Shown: one piece after another, positions 1,003 through 49,680 of the stretch
How the letters are laid out: each line of letters begins with the position of its first letter
How positions within the stretch are numbered: position 1 is the stretch's first letter
From: Diprion similis
Lineage: Eukaryota; Arthropoda; Insecta; Hymenoptera; Diprionidae
DNA: 64,000 bases
Direction: 5' to 3'
NCBI RefSeq assembly: GCF_021155765.1
Contig: NC_060117.1
Coordinates: forward strand, 6,352,001 to 6,416,000
Notes under the pieces: model-generated
Seen by the model: only the letters and a program-made list of their open reading frames with translations
Database searches by the model: none
Told to the model about the DNA's origin: nothing
Position numbers and translations under genes: made by a program

Positions 1003-1156
1003 AACGGAATGTTAATTACTGCAGTTAAGTTGCAGATTATCAATTAGCCAAACGAACTGCGAGGCTTGAGCCGGAGTTTGTAACTGCAGATTGAAATCCG
1101 GAGTCGGCGAAATATACGGCGGTGTTATCGAATATGTTTTACAATTCTTAGTGAAC

Positions 1157-1184
1157 ACTGATTGCACACGTATGGACTTATAAA
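1157..1184 (-). promoter_or_regulatory. TATA box and TCAGT initiator of the 77-residue secreted protein gene
   Basis: Read on the minus strand, TTTATAAG at 1184-1177 is followed about 25 bases later by TCAGT (A of the initiator at 1159). This pairing is typical of arthropod core promoters. It lies 157 bases upstream of the ATG at 1002. Confidence 0.55.
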
Positions 1185-1206
1185 TCGCGCATTCTTCTTA
1201 CCGCTG

Positions 1207-1215
1207 CGTATAAAA
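1207..1215 (+). promoter_or_regulatory. TATA box facing the opposite direction (candidate divergent promoter)
   Basis: GCGTATAAAAC on the plus strand lies only about 25 bases from the minus-strand TATA box at 1177-1184, so the two face away from each other. The plus-side transcript would start near 1238 and first meets a 24-codon ORF at about 1305. I see no convincing product on that side. Confidence 0.3.
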
Positions 1216-1590
1216 CTTTTGCACGTGTATACTTGCAGCAGTTGTTTGTACAACTTCTTGACAAATAGGTATTAAAATATTGATTTATTAAGATATATTA
1301 CAATAATGATCATAAAACAAGGAATTTTTTATGCCAATAGACTGTACGCATTATTAAAATCCACAGTTTTAGCGTTTTAGAATCCAATCCGTGCATTCCG
1401 AGGAAAAATTCACCGAAGAACTGCGAAATTTATAAAACTGTATAGAAATAAAATACAACGATAAATTAAAAAAATTATCATTTGTCACTGAAAATTTCAG
1501 GTACGCGAAGTATTTTTGAGTTGTTTGTAAAGCGTCATTTCCAATAAGGATGGAATGAGAAATATTTAACGATTTCATTGGTGTAAGCTG

Positions 1591-1865
1591 GTTGGAAAAT
1601 GTCCTTATGACGTCAGAGCCTGGTTTTCGGCGCCATTTTATCACCACATAACCTAAATTTTTCATTTCAATAGAGGCAAATCATAATTCTTGGGCTTTCA
1701 AATTACTCATGTCACATAAATTAATTAAACATAATCAATAATATACCTGATCCAGTATCCATACACGAAAAAACACGGTTAACGTTCAGCTGTCAGCCTG
1801 GTTGCATTAGTTTTATTTTTTTTTTTTTTCACCAGATGACGCATTGCAAAGTGGCAATCGCAATA
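1591..1865 (+). repeat. Interspersed repeat family S, copy 2
   Basis: Same family and orientation as 87-360, about 1.5 kb away, so the pair brackets the small secreted-protein gene and its promoter. Shared landmarks include GACGTCAGAGCCTGG, GGCGCCATTTTAT and CAGCTGTCAGCCTGG. The 88-codon frame that begins near its right end (1836) owes its start to the repeat and has no other support. Confidence 0.8.
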
Positions 1866-3189: not shown

Positions 3190-3195
3190 TTTATT
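3190..3195 (-). terminator. Poly(A) signal of the peptide-precursor gene
   Basis: AATAAA on the minus strand, six bases past the TAA. The short distance is unusual but acceptable for a compact peptide transcript. Confidence 0.45.
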
Positions 3196-3200
3196 TATAA

Positions 3201-4066
3201 TTAACCGCAGCATCCTGGATCAGCTGAATTGTTCGATTTGGTGTTAGGAGATCGCTTTATCAGATGCGAAGTTTCAGTTTCACCAGATAGTTGAATTATT
3301 TCCTCTGCGATGTGATGCGGACTTCCTTCGTCTGCAACGGCTGCTGGAGCGTGGCGACGATGAATCTATTTTATAAAATAAAGTTTGAATTTTGTTTTGC
3401 GAACAGATATGAAAACAATCGTTGAATTTCCACAAGTGCAGAATAGACGAACGAAAATATCGACGAAAATTTCTATAGTTTTTATTAAAAAAATATACTT
3501 CTGAGTAGCAAATGAATTTCAAGACCTTGTTGAACCGAAAAAATCTGTTCAAAAGTGATTAAAAAAATTTGAGAAAATCAGTAATTTTTCTTAAATTCCA
3601 AAATATCGTTCTGGTTTTAACAAAAGCAAAACTTTATCTGACGAAACTTTTTTTTTTTTTTTTTTTTATTACTTACGCGGATGAAATAAAAATTTATTTA
3701 TTTGAATATAAACTCAAGGCAAAAAAAAAAAAAAGATTTTCTCGCGTAATCATAATCATTTCTTGTACCAAATTGTCTTGTAATTTCAGCAATATTCAAA
3801 CCGCGATTATTATAACGAAACGATATTTAATAGAATTCGTTGTAAAACTATAAAAAAGTCAATTTTCCTCAAAAAAAAAAAAAAATAAATAAATAAAAAA
3901 TTCAAAGCACTTGATAAATTTATAATATAGACATTATTACTGGGTTGAAGAGAAGCGAAATTGGATCTGCTTCGGGTGAGGCATCCTTTTCTTGTTGAAG
4001 ATGATCGACGTTTCGAGCAAGTGCCGTGCTGCACGCGACGATCAAGAAAACAAGACGGAACGACAT
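3201..4066 (-). CDS. Secreted peptide precursor with dibasic sites and C-terminal Cys-Cys-Gly (two exons: 4066-3941, 3365-3201)
   Basis: Exon 1 (126 bases, 42 codons) starts at the ATG at 4066 and encodes a clear signal peptide, MSFRLVFLIVACSTALA, followed by an acidic spacer. It ends at a GTAATA donor in phase 0. Exon 2 (165 bases) follows a TAG acceptor at 3366 and stays in the same frame to a TAA at 3201-3203, giving 96 residues. The second half has Arg-Arg near residue 45 and Lys-Arg about 17 residues from the end; the terminal peptide is SPNTKSNNSADPGCCG. In peptide precursors a Gly right after the last residue is the usual amidation donor. A TATA box (4147-4156) lies about 90 bases upstream of the start, and AATAAA (3190-3195) sits just after the stop. 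I know no named family that fits. Neuropeptide, venom or immune peptide are the options. The weak pyrimidine tract before the acceptor is the main doubt. Confidence 0.55.
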
Positions 4067-4146
4067 TTTGCAAGAATGATATTGCAGCAGCTGAATCAGT
4101 TCCTCGATTGCAAACAGTGTCTGAATTAGCAGAGACGATGATGGAG

Positions 4147-4156
4147 CTTTTTATAC
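4147..4156 (-). promoter_or_regulatory. TATA box of the peptide-precursor gene
   Basis: GTATAAAAAG on the minus strand. About 33 bases downstream (4120-4124) lies TCAGA, an initiator-like pentamer. The implied 5' UTR of about 56 bases has no ATG before the start at 4066. Confidence 0.55.
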
Positions 4157-5750: not shown

Positions 5751-8700
5751 CTATTTTGATGCTTCGTCGTAGGAAAGTATTGGTACTTTGTCACTTGATT
5801 GACCCAGAGTTGCACCCCATTTTGCACCCCGACCAGCCTCCGGGGTGGCCATTAAATTTGACCGAGAATTCGGCGACGTAGCTTCTTTACTATGATGAAT
5901 TCCATACAGGAAGTAAACAAGCATACCTGAACAACAAAATTGATTTGTGAAAATTATTCAGTTAGTCACATTGACTCGTCGCTTCACATAGTTACTACAT
6001 TGCTAAGAATAGCTATTTATGTCGCATGTTCTTAAACCACCTGTTTTTTTAGCAAGGATAAAGATTTCAGGACGAGCTGAAGGCGAGCCGGGAACGAGTA
6101 CTGAAATTATCCGAGCCAAAAAACGGTTTACGGGCATTCCACATACAATATTTTTTACGGTATGGGCATTGAAAAGTAAAACGAAGAGTGAGGTTATGTC
6201 GCGATCTGTTCGACGAAGCTACTTTATTCGGCAGTTTGGGATGCGCACTTCGAACTGCGCATCAAAACTGCGGAATAAAGACTTTATTCCGCAACTTTGT
6301 TCGCTGCTGTATAAAACGTCACTTTACGGAACGAAAACTGCCACACAAAGTGAAATTTTTAATGCCTATGCCGTTAAAACGTTTTTAATGGTTAGGCTTA
6401 AAATAGGATAGTAGCGAATGGTTCAATGGTATTCGTATCACGAATTACAGAAGACATATGTAACATAGTATTGTTGAAAGAACCCACCTAGTATCATCCA
6501 TACAAAGAAGCGAATCCAAGTCAAAGATGACAAGTGAAACATTAACCCAATGTTGCAGAAAATGCTCAATGCTGGAACGAATGGAACCAGTGGCACACGA
6601 AACCTTGCATTGAGTCCCGGAGTTTGTTGATGGCATCCAATCACGAAAAGACCTATGAGAACCATGTGAGGTACTCTTTGTGTTGAATTAAATTTTCGCG
6701 ATAATTTTTGCGACATCTGTTCATGTCTAACAGTACTTACAGATGATCAGCAGTAACCCAAGGAAAACGAAGGCGAAATAATCGCCAAGTCGTAACTGAG
6801 TGGACGGTTTGAACGAGATGTGTAGCGCTGCACACATCGGAACACAGAGAAGGGCGAACAAAAGTGTAGCTATTGTGACACATTTTCCTGGTTCAAAACG
6901 ACCCAACACCCATGCCAACCAAGAATATCGGGGCTTGAGCCTTCCAGTTCCTTCACTCAAGTCTAAAAGCTGTTGAAAACGGAATAGATAGCGTTACGAA
7001 ATCACTTCCAATCAGTGAATATACGATATCAGTGTCCTTCTTCATTTTTTCCAAGTTTAGATTGAACAATCTTACATTCTGACAGTAGATAAGTTGTGTA
7101 TGTTTCACCAATATTTGCAAATTGGACAAAAAAGTGACTTTCGATGTTTCGATTCCAAGAAATTCATCGTATCCTATCATCAAGTCATCTTTACCTCAGC
7201 ATTCGATGAATGGATGCTATTGCAGTCACTTCCCGAGTGTGAGTCTGGACCCTCGGTCATAGAAGAACCTGGAGTGCTGGGAGTAATGGCTTCGGTAGCA
7301 GAAGTCGATGTTACCTCGGGACGATACCTCAACACAATCACACTCGCTGAGACGATCGTGTAGGCCAAAAAGGTTCCAATTGACATGAACTCTACGAGGT
7401 GTTCGAGGTCGAAGTAGAACGCGATTGACGAACAACACAATCCGGTGAATATCAGACTGAAGATCGGTACTCTCGTGAACGGAAATATCTTGGCGAAAAA
7501 GCCAAACAAGAGTCCATCGCTTGCCATTGAGTACATAGTCCGTGGCAGGGAGAAAAGTGATCCAAAGAGTGTCGTGGTCATGCCGCACAAGGCACCAATG
7601 CTGCGAAAAGATGTTTTTTCGGTCATAGTACAATATCTCGTCACGCAGTTCAAGAAACCGATTCAAGGCTGATCCAGAACTTAACAAGTAGCTGGAATTT
7701 ACCTGATAACATATTTCGCCCAAGGCAGAACCCCGGAAAAAGCGTCCAGTAGTGCCGTGGTTGGATTTATTTCCCGGAATGGTACAACCGCAGTTAGGGT
7801 TCCACCTATAACGACGTAAGCTGTGGTCACTACTACCATGGCAATGATTGTGGCAATTGGGATACTTCTGGCTGGTTCTCGAGCCTCCTCTCCAGCGGTT
7901 GCGATTGAGTCGAAACCAACGAATGCGTAAAAGCAGGTGGCCGCACCTGTAAAATAACGAGAAGATGATCTTCCATTGTTTATCAGATACGGATCCATCA
8001 TTCCAGTCTCGTCAAACGTCCAGAATTACCTGCCAAAACACCGTTAAATCCAAATGGAAGAAAGCCGTCTACGTCATTGACCCAATTATCGATATCTGCG
8101 TAATAGAATCCCATACCGCCGATCATTATTATCACTACCAGATTCACTAAGGTCAGAACTGCGTTCACCATCGCTGACGCTTTTACACCAGCGGCAATTG
8201 GAATTGTGTAAAGAAGACACACGGCGGCGGCTAGAAAATCGTAGCAGGGAGGATCGTCTGTGTTTCTGTAGCCACATACCAGGTGGGATGAATAATTGCT
8301 CAATAATCCGCCCGTCAGAGAATCAACGTACGCACTCCAGGCCCTGGCAACGGAGGCTGCGCCTGTAAAAGATGACAGAAAAAAGGTCCATATAACTAAA
8401 ATCTTGTGATACTGTATCAAGATTCACTTCAGCTTTTATAAAAAGAAAATGGGAAAGACAAGTTTCTTACAAGGAAAGTATAGACCAAAAACTAAGTGAC
8501 ACATTTTTGTAAGTAACACCCTTTGACATGCCTTACTTTGGAGGGTGGTTTCACCCTTTCGCAGTGCTTAATGGCAGACAAAAAGAAATACGTGTTGCTT
8601 AGTTCTTAGTCTACAATAACATATTACAAAAGAAATGAAATCGGAGAGATCGACTTGGGATACCTTCCTTATGTTAGTCTCCTTAAATTCGAAATAAATT

Positions 8701-9201
8701 TTTTCCAATACATGGCTCACCGATCATGTGCTCCAACATCACGTTCCATCCGATTATGAAGGCCCAAAACTCGCCGATGGAAACGTATGTGTAGACGTAT
8801 GCACTGCCCGCTTTTGGGACCCTTGCACCAAACTCTGCGTAGCATAGAGCTGCCATCAGTGATGCGAACCCCGCCAGAAGAAAACTTAGGACAATTCCTG
8901 GACCAGCGATATATCGAGCAACGATTCCAGTCAGGACGTAGATCCCTGCTCCGACCATATGACCGATTCCTGATGTCATGTGAACGGAAAACCATACAAA
9001 CATGAAATGGGATGGATTGGTTTCAAAATTGAAGTAAAAATACCGGTTATATTTCATACCCAGCAAGGTGATTTCGAAGGTGGACAAGCATCGTTTTAAA
9101 GGAGTTTCCATGACGTTTCCTCGGATCTTTTTCATCCGATTCATTTTGGCGCACGTGTCACTCAACACGTGGCCCAAGATCATCCTTCTGACGCCCGGCA
9201 T
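5751..9201 (-). CDS. Cationic amino acid transporter, SLC7/CAT family (eight exons, complete)
   Basis: Exons on the minus strand: 9201-9060, 8969-8721, 8362-8030, 7946-7703, 7600-7195, 6969-6741, 6652-6488, 5926-5751. All introns are GT-AG and phases close to 1,944 bases, 647 residues plus stop, a usual CAT length. The family moves arginine, lysine and ornithine across membranes. Visible landmarks: [14 protein letters not shown] before the first helix; [13 protein letters not shown], the substrate-binding glycine segment of TM1 (residues about 50-62); [67 protein letters not shown]; and a C-terminal permease domain from about residue 470 (TM12-14). The loop encoded at the end of exon 5 (Ser/Thr/Gly-rich, about residues 425-458) is the usual variable cytoplasmic loop. 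The last exon gives a short polar tail. An AG sits at 9217-9216, so an upstream UTR exon is likely. Intron 7 carries a composite repeat (6013-6390). The exact paralogue cannot be told from sequence alone. Confidence 0.95.
6013..6390 (+). mobile_element. Composite two-hairpin element R, copy 1 (in transporter intron 7)
   Basis: Matches 49300-49680 in reverse complement at high identity. Two hairpin modules lie side by side: one bounded by RCATGYYCKTAAACCRCCTG and GCGGTTTACGGGCATKCCACAT-like ends, the second bounded by TTTTACGGYATGGGCATTG and AATGCCYATGCCGTTAAAA. Inside the second is a GC-rich palindromic core around TTGCGGAATAAAG and CTTTATTCCGC. The long open frame across it (6019-6411) is conserved between copies only because the DNA is; it is not a gene. 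Confidence 0.75.
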
Positions 9202-9858
9202 GATCGTTTTGTTACCTGGACAAAATACACGAATGGATTATAATGTTTCTAAAGAATTTTTTCCTTCTTGGTTTCAATATTCAATTACCTTTTTTACCGT
9301 TATTACTACAGTATTCAACTACTTTCTTTTATTTTAGCTTCTCAGACTTTTCAAAAATGGCATGAGATCCTAACGCTTCACCAATGAAGACAAACAATTC
9401 AATGATAGATCGAATTGCTTCCGAAAGGCATTGCAGCAAATGAAAGTGAACTACCAAAGTCAAATTGTCATAAAACTGATGTAAAATCAATTCAAAAGTA
9501 GACAGAAAATATTAGTTTTAAGATCATGCAATCGCGAACGAACGTCATGTTCTCTCGTCAATTTCGAAACCCGATACGATTCGTTCTGAAAATGAATGGA
9601 GCAGAGTATGATTGGAATAGCTCTCCAAAAAAGATGATTTGCTTTGGGTGGAAAAATGCAGCAAAATGATTGCACAGCAATGTTATCAGTAACACAAATG
9701 ATGTCATATGTGACTGCCTCAATAATTGTCGAACCGAAACTCTAGCAATTTGTGGGTTTGTCCGCGAAACTGCCGTTAAGTTCGAGCATAATTGTATCTT
9801 TATCTTCAAGTCAAGGTGCATGTTTAAAGCAAAGAAGGGCATTAACTGTTGACTCACC

Positions 9859-15401: not shown

Positions 15402-16652
15402 TTAGGAAATAACGCATGAATTTCTCTTGGCGTCGGTTCGTTCGCGGATCTGTTGGAGATGCTGAAGCTGCGAAGGCGACGGCACGTGGGCGCTGCTCAC
15501 TCTTGAGCTAAGATGCTGAGGGGGTGGTAAGGATTGCCGTCGTCTGCGGCGCAAAGCTGGACTCAAGTTGTACTTCACCTTAGCCTGTATCAACAGCTCC
15601 TTGAACACCTGGTTTATGTTCGTGTTCTCCTTCGCTGATACCTCCACGAAACCGTTTTCCCAATCGACGGTCACCAACGCCTCTGTGCTCTCCCTGTCCA
15701 CCTGGATTACCCCGATTCAATCAATTCTTCGTCGAAATAAGTTTTTTTGTTTGTTTTTTTTTTTTTTTTTTAGTTATCGACAGGTATCGGTTTAAATTTT
15801 GTAAATTTACAAAAATTTTTTTCGCATTTACTAACAGAAATGTTACAAATAGTACAAATACAAAGTGGACCTGCTGAAACGTTATTTTTAACGTTTTTTA
15901 AACTTTTCCAACAGTATACGGCTGACAAATCGTCTCGTGTTATTGGGACTGTCGCTTTGCAATGCGACATCTGGTGGAAAAAATTCAAACTAATTCAAAC
16001 AATTTAACAGCTAATCGTTGAACGTCTTTTTCGCGTTTGAATAATAGAACAGATATATTATTGATTATGATTAATTAATTTATATGACATGATTGATTTG
16101 AAAGTTCAAGAACTACGATTTGGCTCCATTAGAATTTCAAACTTAGGTTATGTGGTGATAAAATGGCGCCGACAAAAAGACTCTGACGTCATGAGGACGT
16201 CATCGAATAATTACCTCGCGATTTTCGTCAGCCAGATCGACTTTGTTTCCAACAACGACGATCGGCACCGCGCTGTAACCTTTGGTCTCGAGTATTTGGG
16301 CCCGAAGAACCTTCGCCTCAAGGAAGGAATTAGAATCGTTGACATCGTAAACCAGAATGAAGGCGTCAGCTGAGGAAATGGAGAGTGCTCGCATAGCCGG
16401 AAATTCGTAGGCACCGGAAGTGTCCAATATATCAAGAGTTAGCTGGATACCGGAAACATTGAAGTCGCCATGATGCATTTCTTCTACGGTTCGTTTGTAT
16501 TTAGCTGAGAATGTGTTGTAGAGAAACTGGCTGATGATCGATGATTTTCCAACTTTCGCTGCTCCCATTACAACGATTTTGTGACGAAACGAGCTTTCCG
16601 TTTGCTTCCTACTGTTGCTGTCCGCCTCTGATAGCCTTTCGGTGCTGCTCAT
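15402..16652 (-). CDS. Ras-like small GTPase with CaaX motif (Ras-dva/Rhes-like subgroup; exons 16652-16215, 15701-15402)
   Basis: Exon 1 (438 bases) and exon 2 (300 bases) join in phase 0 to 245 residues. G-domain motifs: P-loop GAAKVGKS (30-37); switch I segment YKRTVEE (52-58); G3 as DTSGAYEF (77-84) instead of DTAGQEE; NKVD (136-139); VSAKEN (167-172). It ends RNSCVIS: a CaaX box with Ser at X, which predicts farnesylation and membrane targeting. A run of five arginines lies in the tail (ALRRRRRQS). The DTSG form with no catalytic Gln is shared by Rhes/Dexras and Ras-dva type proteins, so slow intrinsic GTP hydrolysis is expected. The closest groups by eye are insect Ras-like proteins related to Ras-dva; the exact orthologue is not certain. 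Start chosen at the ATG at 16652, because the longer frame upstream has only TTG. The 513-base intron holds repeat S copy 3. Confidence 0.93.
15943..16203 (-). repeat. Interspersed repeat family S, copy 3 (inside the GTPase intron)
   Basis: Reverse complement of 87-360 and 1591-1865: GCATTGCAAAG, CACCAGATG, GGCGCCATTTTAT, CACATAACCTAA and GACGTCAGAG are all present. Its end lies within about 12 bases of the exon 1 splice donor at 16214-16213. Confidence 0.78.
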
Positions 16653-17273
16653 CGTCAATGCAAAGTGGATCAAACGAGATCAGCATTAATTCGATATCAG
16701 TCCTTTAAAAAGTCCGATCACGGATCGCGCTTTGCTTCGACTTAATCCCGATGAAAATAGGGGCGCGAAAATCGACTTGGAAGGAAAAACGAACCAACTT
16801 TTCACGTTCGAAAATTCCCTCACGATCCGATGTTAGTGAATTTAAATCCTTGAATAGATAGTGTTTCTCTGTTTTGTAAATCGTTTTAAATTCAATTCCA
16901 GTACATTTAATCTTATATTTTTTATATTCAAATAAAATTTTTATTTCTTTATTAGGAATGAGTCGGGATAATCATATCCAGAGGAAATCGAGCCCAATTG
17001 TTATAATGGATTTAAAAAACTACGATTTATGATCGGATCTTTGATTTTTGTCTTTCACCTTTATATCGGTTAATGTATATTGTAATAAGTGACAGGTCAA
17101 AGCTTGTGGAATATAAATGTCGGTTTGTTGGTTTTAGTATTAGCATAAGCGAGACTCGCCCGGGTGCTGAGAAAATAAAAGTTTTACGGTGTACGTTTGC
17201 ATATAAATAATTCATACTTTGACAGATTCTGGTGTATAATATATATTTGTTTAAGTAAAAGCTCTCCGTGGTG

Positions 17274-47699: not shown

Positions 47700-49295
47700 G
47701 CAATCTTTACAATCTTAGAGAGAGAGTTTCGGCTAGAGATAGAGTCCTTTAATGGAGATTCCTATTTATTTATTTATTTCAAAACATTTTGAGGCTAGTT
47801 GCGGTTAAATTTCGAAAAACTCCAGAATAAGAGCCACCCTATTGATTGCATTGGTTTATGGTCAGATTGAGAAAGCCTCTGGACCAGAATACACCCTTAA
47901 TTTGAAATGATAATCGGTTTTATGTTTCATCAATACGATCATTCGCTATGTGAATTCCAAAAAAGTATCCGTTTCGGCGGACAATCCACTTGATTGAGTC
48001 TAAGAAGCGTTTTTTTTATTCAAATATATTCCTTAAAAAGATAATCTCTTCTACACGAAAAAAACTATGTTGTTTTTTTTTTTTTTTTTTTTTGCTCTCC
48101 ATTTTTGCTTCACATCAAACTAACAGATTTGAAGAGAATATTTTGTGATAGATAATAAATTTTCTGGCTCTAATTCTGAGTGCAAATTCGAAGAGGTTAT
48201 TAGTCGTATTATTCAGATTTTCTCAAATTTGTTTTCATCATACGGTATAGATGTTTTTTAATTCGCGTTCATTAATATTCTCGTAAATGAAATTGCTCAA
48301 GATTTCTCTAACAGTTTTTTTTACTCTGTTCCTGACTTTGACTTTGGATTCAGGCATTGGTGGTCCATCCATTATTAATGGGAAACGTCTGCGAAACGCC
48401 TCCAGACTTTTTTGTTTACCGTGAAATTTTAACTATATCAATCAAGTTTTCTGCTACCTGAAACATGTATTCTGCTACCCGACTTATCGCCTGATTGTAT
48501 TCATCAAGTTCCTATAGATATTTGCTCAAATAACTTCGAAAATTGGCATTCGTTAAAAGCTATTTGCGTCATAATTTTTACCTGCTGAAAAAACCAAAAT
48601 CTGACGATTACAAACTTATTTTCAATTGATCATATAATTCACGAATAAATCTTCGGTTCGTAAAAGACTGACAATCTCGAAAAATTTTATTTCACTTGCA
48701 ATTTTCATATCGTTAAATCGAAGATATTCATTGACTCTTTTTCAATTCCCATTTTGACTTTGATTTTCAAATAATTAGTGACATAATGCAATATTATGCC
48801 ATTGTAAATTCCAGCAATAACCAACGTTTCAAAGGATTTCGTTACTGGGGAGAGAAAAATTGTGTAAAACGCGATTTGCTCAATTCTTTTCGGTACTTCG
48901 ATATCTCATTAAAAAAAAACTAATCCTCCTCACTAACAAATTGAAAGTAATTCATTAGAATATATTTTCATTACAGCTGATTGTTAAACCTCGTTTTGTT
49001 CATTACGGGAACGTAGAGAAGGTACTGGGCATCGTTATGCATTCAGATGCATATCTGCACGTGATTTGCATAGAAAACACAGAAGAATAACGTTAAGTAT
49101 ATTTCTAGAACGTGTGTGCTCAATTTGCCATCAAGAATACACTGCAAGTTTGCCAATAAGTAGAAAAAAATGCAGAATAAAAATTTCCCGTGATGAAAAT
49201 TTATGCGAAATTCCAAGTGATTCCAATTGCCAAATTTTCAAAGTTTTCATAAATCATTTGGACTTGAAAAAACTAAAAAATGAGAAAAGTTATCT
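47700..49295. other. Gene-free AT-rich stretch
   Basis: No supported gene or bounded repeat; one poly(T) run of about 20 near 48073. Confidence 0.5.
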
Positions 49296-49299
49296 TCAT

Positions 49300-49680
49300 A
49301 ATATTTTTTTTACGGCATGGGCATTGTAAAATCCACTTTTTGTGGCAGTTTTCGTTCCGTAAAGTGACGCTTTATACGGCAGCGAACAAAGTTGCGGAAT
49401 AAAGCCTTTATTCCGCAGTTTTGTTGCGCAGTTCGAAGTGCGCATCCCAAACTGCCGAATAAAGTAGCTTCGTCGAACAGATCGCGACATAACCTCACTC
49501 TTCGTTTTGCTTTTCAATGCCCATACCGTAAAAAATATTGTATGTAGCATGCCCGTAAACCGTTTTTTGGCTCGGATAATTTCAGTACTCGTTTCCGGCT
49601 CGCCTTCAGCTCGTCCTGAAATCTTTATCCTTGCCAAAAAAAAAACAGGCGGTTTACGGGCATGCCACATAAATCGCTAT
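49300..49680 (-). mobile_element. Composite two-hairpin element R, copy 2
   Basis: Reverse complement of 6013-6390 with few changes. It shows the structure more clearly than copy 1: TTTTTACGGCATGGGCATTG mirrored by CAATGCCCATACCGTAAAAA, then GCATGCCCGTAAACCGTTTT mirrored by GGCGGTTTACGGGCATGCC. Confidence 0.8.

Follow-up and report, generated by a model that had tools for sequence, protein, structure and literature searches.

Does the minus strand at positions 3201..4066 of the window, the whole 64,000-nucleotide stretch of Diprion similis DNA that we analysed, encode the precursor of a secreted, amidated peptide belonging to no known insect family? Judged from its sequence signals, the locus most likely represents a taxonomically restricted secreted-peptide gene. 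For the fuller proposal, that this is a real single-copy gene of restricted distribution whose 96-residue secretory prepropeptide gives rise to an amidated extracellular peptide with a Cys-Cys ring or a Cys-Cys dimer, we consider the chances to be about even.

Layout of the locus and its splice sites

An earlier note on this DNA had listed a TATA box, a signal peptide, a pair of phase-0 exons, Arg-Arg and Lys-Arg sites, a short tail, a stop codon and AATAAA at this locus, and all of these elements are present, on the minus strand. The TATA box (TATAAA) lies at 4150..4155, and an initiator-like TCAG, a consensus match only, lies at 4121..4124 with its A at 4122, 33 bases downstream of the T that begins the TATA box; a second TCAG is found at 4094. 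The predicted transcript has its ATG at 4066, and the coding part of exon 1 (3941..4066) encodes a signal peptide, MSFRLVFLIVACSTALA, followed by RNVDHLQQEKDASPEADPISLLFNP. By a simple rule, the signal peptide has a hydrophobic core with a mean hydropathy of 3.45 and small residues before the cut. Splicing would remove a 575-base GT-AG intron in phase 0 (3366..3940), whose donor, CCA/GTAATA, is weak. The coding part of exon 2 together with the stop codon (3201..3365) comprises IHRR, an acidic spacer, KR and a terminal peptide; the exon ends in GGATGCTGCGGTTAA, and the 16-residue terminal peptide itself, SPNTKSNNSADPGCCG, is encoded at 3204..3251. The intron closes with an in-frame TAG, so that the open frame of exon 2 begins precisely at the acceptor and runs to the stop codon. 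With the exons joined, the predicted precursor reads MSFRLVFLIVACSTALA-RNVDHLQQEKDASPEADPISLLFNP-IHRR-HAPAAVADEGSPHHIAEEIIQLSGETETSHLI-KR-SPNTKSNNSADPGCCG, 96 residues in all. The AATAAA poly(A) signal (3190..3195) follows the stop codon after a gap of 5 bases, which is unusually close.

Neither of two kappa-B-like patterns was found in the 1500 bases upstream of the peptide gene, leaving an immune-induced promoter without support. The next recognised gene upstream, represented by amino acid permease exons at 7180-9237 of the window (minus strand), shares the orientation of the peptide gene. Some 12 kb past the peptide gene, the locus L044 contains, on the other strand, a frame of glycine-rich repeats (1141-1713, plus strand), perhaps coding for a protein of cuticle or silk type.

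The gene model is most open to doubt in its splicing. For the donor at 3940, 5 of 9 positions agree with the consensus; with both strands of the window counted, 2730 of 6559 GTs score as high or higher. Two of the other donors before the end of the exon 1 frame, at 3932 and 3910, were tested as well, and with them the product shrank to 67 and 48 residues, respectively. When donor 3940 was kept, six other acceptors gave products of at least 60 residues: those at 3544, 3500, 3497 and 3472 yielded 61 to 86 residues with ends resembling translated AT-rich DNA, the acceptor at 3525 lengthened the product to 123 residues and gave it an unrelated end, and the acceptor at 3302 yielded 75 residues with the Lys-Arg tail unchanged. 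By eye, the acceptors at 3500 (TTTGCTACTCAG) and 3544 (CTTTTGAACAG) look stronger than the one used in the model. An internal exon combining a better donor at 3676 (GTAAGT) with an acceptor near 3848, the only one considered, by hand, was rejected, as it contained an in-frame stop. Judging from these sites, alternative transcripts using positions 3500, 3525, 3544 and 3676 of the intron (minus strand) are possible.

Base composition, chance and coding signal

The main argument in favour of the gene model is a step in G+C content at 3365. Exon 1 has a G+C fraction of 0.492 and exon 2 one of 0.473, compared with 0.231 in the intron between them. The 500-base flanks have 0.344 (upstream) and 0.292 (downstream), and the window as a whole has 0.351.

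In order to gauge the anatomy against chance, we scanned both strands of 212,216 bases from 41 of 45 sequences (the window, L044 and a number of loci obtained for other purposes), leaving out four loci that repeat the peptide gene. A model consisted of an ATG with a signal peptide by the simple rule, a GTR...AG intron of 50-1200 bases, a product of 60-150 residues, a final Gly and Lys/Arg-Arg located 6-35 residues before the end; as controls, the sequences were shuffled three times in 60-base blocks. This loose anatomy yielded 30 models in real DNA versus 10, 18 and 23 in the shuffled sets, which is not clearly beyond chance, and a signal peptide with a dibasic site and a final Gly is, by itself, common by chance.

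One alternative is that the locus encodes a real, lineage-specific small secreted protein (of a gland, seminal-fluid or cuticle-associated type), possibly spliced somewhat differently, from which no amidated C-terminal peptide is released; the Lys-Arg and the final Gly would then be incidental. The rate of loose Lys/Arg-Arg and final-Gly models in shuffled DNA, between a third and three quarters of the real rate, is consistent with this, as are the absence of a repeated mature unit, the lack of any paralogue in our searches and the existence of alternative splice sites. However, the elements stand in the order signal peptide, acidic spacer, Lys-Arg, short polar tail and Gly-stop, which is the usual layout of a single-peptide prohormone, and this argues for processing. 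We regard an unprocessed protein as a serious possibility, though a doubtful one.

Requiring an exon-intron G+C contrast of at least 0.15 left 2 of the 30 models in real DNA and none in any of the three shuffled sets. When the TATA/initiator was added to this filter, a single model was left, the peptide gene, versus 0, 0 and 0 in the shuffled sets. Because the rules were post hoc and the sequences a non-random sample, this outcome is an indication and does not amount to a probability.

Codon usage was scored with a model built on 5760 codons of kinase loci. Of 30 such loci fetched, 26 were used; L024, L026, L031 and L042 were excluded because of stops inside their matches. In its frame, exon 1 scored above 2000 shuffles (p = 0.008), with one antisense frame scoring higher, in what is a weak test on 42 codons. 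The score of exon 2 was indistinguishable from shuffles (p = 0.10, a weak test on 54 codons), and the coding frame was outscored by a further sense frame and by one frame on the antisense strand.

It is also conceivable that there is no gene as drawn, and that a chance combination or a decayed gene brings together an orphan 48-codon frame (exon 1) and an unrelated G+C-rich island (exon 2). The weak donor, the lack of a codon signal in exon 2 and the failure to find a protein relative in the database all point this way. Against it, the frames of the two islands join in phase 0, the islands are closely bounded by G+C steps, the TATA/initiator and AATAAA, and such a model appeared in none of the three shuffled sets. 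We consider a chance or decayed structure unlikely.

Search for relatives and the intron repeat

The D. similis genome (269,008,206 bases in 60 contigs) contains no detectable paralogue. At the protein level, only the two exons of the peptide gene itself matched, and at the DNA level all 56 of the non-self matches listed fell in the intron part of the query. These belong to a dispersed repeat located at 3541..3695 (minus strand), for which the genome holds at least 57 matches including the locus itself, the other 56 being 72-91% identical. Some copies elsewhere are MITE-like: parts of the sequence around the repeat are self-inverted at the loci L002 and L008, in a palindromic arrangement; no such self-inversion was found around it in L003 and L005. 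Elsewhere in the window, two near-identical frames lie on opposite strands, at 6013-6411 (plus) and 49296-49676 (minus), and probably represent the same mobile element, present twice. The recurrence of an IFFT.WAL stretch in an overlapping plus-strand frame (48988-49329) suggests that the element has inverted ends.

A Pro-Gly-Cys-Cys-Gly end followed by a TAA or TGA stop occurs at 3 places genome-wide, including the peptide gene, and at 1 in the reversed control. The other two places were set aside: by eye, the last open frame before the motif contained neither Lys-Arg nor Arg-Arg.

No relative was found in a large protein database with either the full precursor (candidates of ~53-168 residues) or the exon 1 frame (candidates of ~26-84 residues). 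This database includes insect entries, with at least one Neodiprion fabricii protein and many from bees and ants. A neighbouring Rap-like GTPase exon (16200-16679 of the window) was 97% identical over 92% of its length to a Neodiprion fabricii protein, and the named protein ranking next in score, one of the bee Tetragonisca angustula, was 82% identical over 90%, both among the best 120 of 595 hits. In simulations with independent sites, a 96-residue relative shared the three words needed for detection in 86% of cases at 60% identity, 46% at 50% and 13% at 40%. An annotated relative of similar length and 60% identity would probably have surfaced. The database covers annotated or predicted proteins of similar length only, and short spliced genes are often missed by annotation. 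The absence of a match thus speaks against a conserved annotated gene, mildly so for diprionids, and does not speak against a fast-evolving or unannotated one.

Profile and structure libraries gave the same result. The precursor matched no Pfam family at E<=10, whether of peptide hormones, toxins or antimicrobial peptides, although short, fast-evolving families may escape profiles; it likewise had no match in NCBIfam, a bacterial and archaeal library, or in the PDB. The window had no match in Rfam, and when exon 2 was compared with viral contigs, 22 stretches fitted a pattern and none was a relative. In the portions available to us of the literature surveyed (on the end motif, vicinal-cysteine amidated peptides, Neodiprion neuropeptides, sawfly venom, orphan Hymenoptera precursors and the Diprion similis genome), the peptide is not described. 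The earlier note knew of no insect family with this C-terminal end, and the searches of the D. similis genome, the protein database, Pfam, NCBIfam and the PDB likewise found none.

Several known systems resemble the peptide gene in part. Insect single-copy amidated neuropeptide precursors share its signal peptide, spacer, dibasic site and short terminal Gly-stop peptide, whereas the peptide gene lacks a known mature motif, places adjacent cysteines at the very end and has no relative found. C-type allatostatins (AST-C, AST-CC) likewise come from small precursors whose last peptide has a pair of cysteines close to its C terminus, but there six residues separate the cysteines, within a conserved C-terminal ring; in our precursor the cysteines are adjacent and that ring is absent. 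Conotoxin-type precursors and vicinal-disulfide spider toxins resemble the predicted product in their cuts at basic residues, their vicinal cysteines and, in many cases, their amide. They are prepropeptides cut at basic residues, often with a C-terminal amide, and have many more cysteines; the peptide gene, in contrast, has far fewer cysteines, no Pfam or PDB match and an insect genome as its source. Antimicrobial peptides of Neodiprion lecontei include hymenoptaecin, abaecin, tachystatin-type and hisnavicin peptides, and 95% of their genes are said to sit in clusters (PMC10542623). They resemble the peptide gene in being small secreted products, whereas the peptide gene has no Pfam match, a polar and near-neutral tail, and no paralogue found.

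That the locus belongs to one of the known insect peptide families and has merely diverged far from it is very improbable: the spacer SPHHIAEEII locally resembles a honeybee brain peptide containing HHMADELL, but this 22-residue peptide had no match in the D. similis genome (an insensitive test), its letters had no occurrence in the literature searched, Pfam returned no family, and the cysteines lack the spacing of the C-type allatostatins.

The reading we prefer, a taxonomically restricted gene for an amidated peptide, is supported by the core promoter spacing, the signal peptide, the closure of the exon 2 frame at the acceptor and the nearness of the stop codon to AATAAA; by the rise of G+C in both exons, the uniqueness of the composite model relative to shuffles and the codon usage of exon 1; and by the occurrence of the exons once in a genome in which the intron carries a repeat and processing-enzyme domains are encoded. 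It is weakened by the weak donor, the better-looking acceptors upstream, the longer frame from 3525, the codon score of exon 2 and the higher-scoring other frames, the lack of a homologue in a protein database that includes at least one Neodiprion fabricii protein and, on this side too, the closeness of AATAAA to the stop.

The predicted peptide and its significance

The Lys-Arg directly precedes the last 16 residues of the precursor, and Gly is the final residue. Domains of the kind needed for processing are encoded in the genome: the convertase P domain (Pfam P_proprotein) has 5 matches, and Cu2_monooxygen has 8 matches at 4 places, the latter domain not being specific to the amidating enzyme, as it also occurs in other monooxygenases. 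The proposed chemistry of cleavage, amidation and cysteine pairing is plausible. The signal peptide would be removed near Ala17, and a proprotein convertase would cut the acidic proregion at Lys79-Arg80, and perhaps also at Arg-Arg. The freed C-terminal SPNTKSNNSADPGCCG, with its final Gly, could then be converted by peptidylglycine monooxygenase to SPNTKSNNSADPGCC-amide. The calculated [M+H]+ of this amide is 1491.595 with an intrachain disulfide and 1493.611 when reduced, that of the reduced Gly-extended acid is 1551.616, and a covalent dimer would appear at the same m/z of 1491.595 as a doubly charged ion.

Only two cysteines, adjacent to each other, follow the signal peptide, so that, if they pair at all, their possible partners are one another, the cysteines of a second chain or those of another protein. 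The adjacent cysteines of SPNTKSNNSADPGCC-amide may form an eight-membered ring or link two chains, and the product may act extracellularly as a peptide messenger or gland product. Because the tail is polar and near neutral, a membrane-lytic antimicrobial role appears unlikely. Going further, we speculate, with low confidence, that the gene is the founding member of a peptide hormone family restricted to pine sawflies, whose 15-residue amide, with an active C-terminal Cys-Cys ring or interchain dimer, would have no counterpart in other insects.

Should only the gene prove real, it would count as another orphan among small secreted proteins. If it is also expressed and processed as predicted, a small lineage would possess a messenger or gland product of its own, with an unusual C-terminal Cys-Cys-amide. 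Such a peptide would lend further weight to the view that a lineage can give rise to secreted peptides of its own, and it would offer a simple test for vicinal-disulfide amides in insects.
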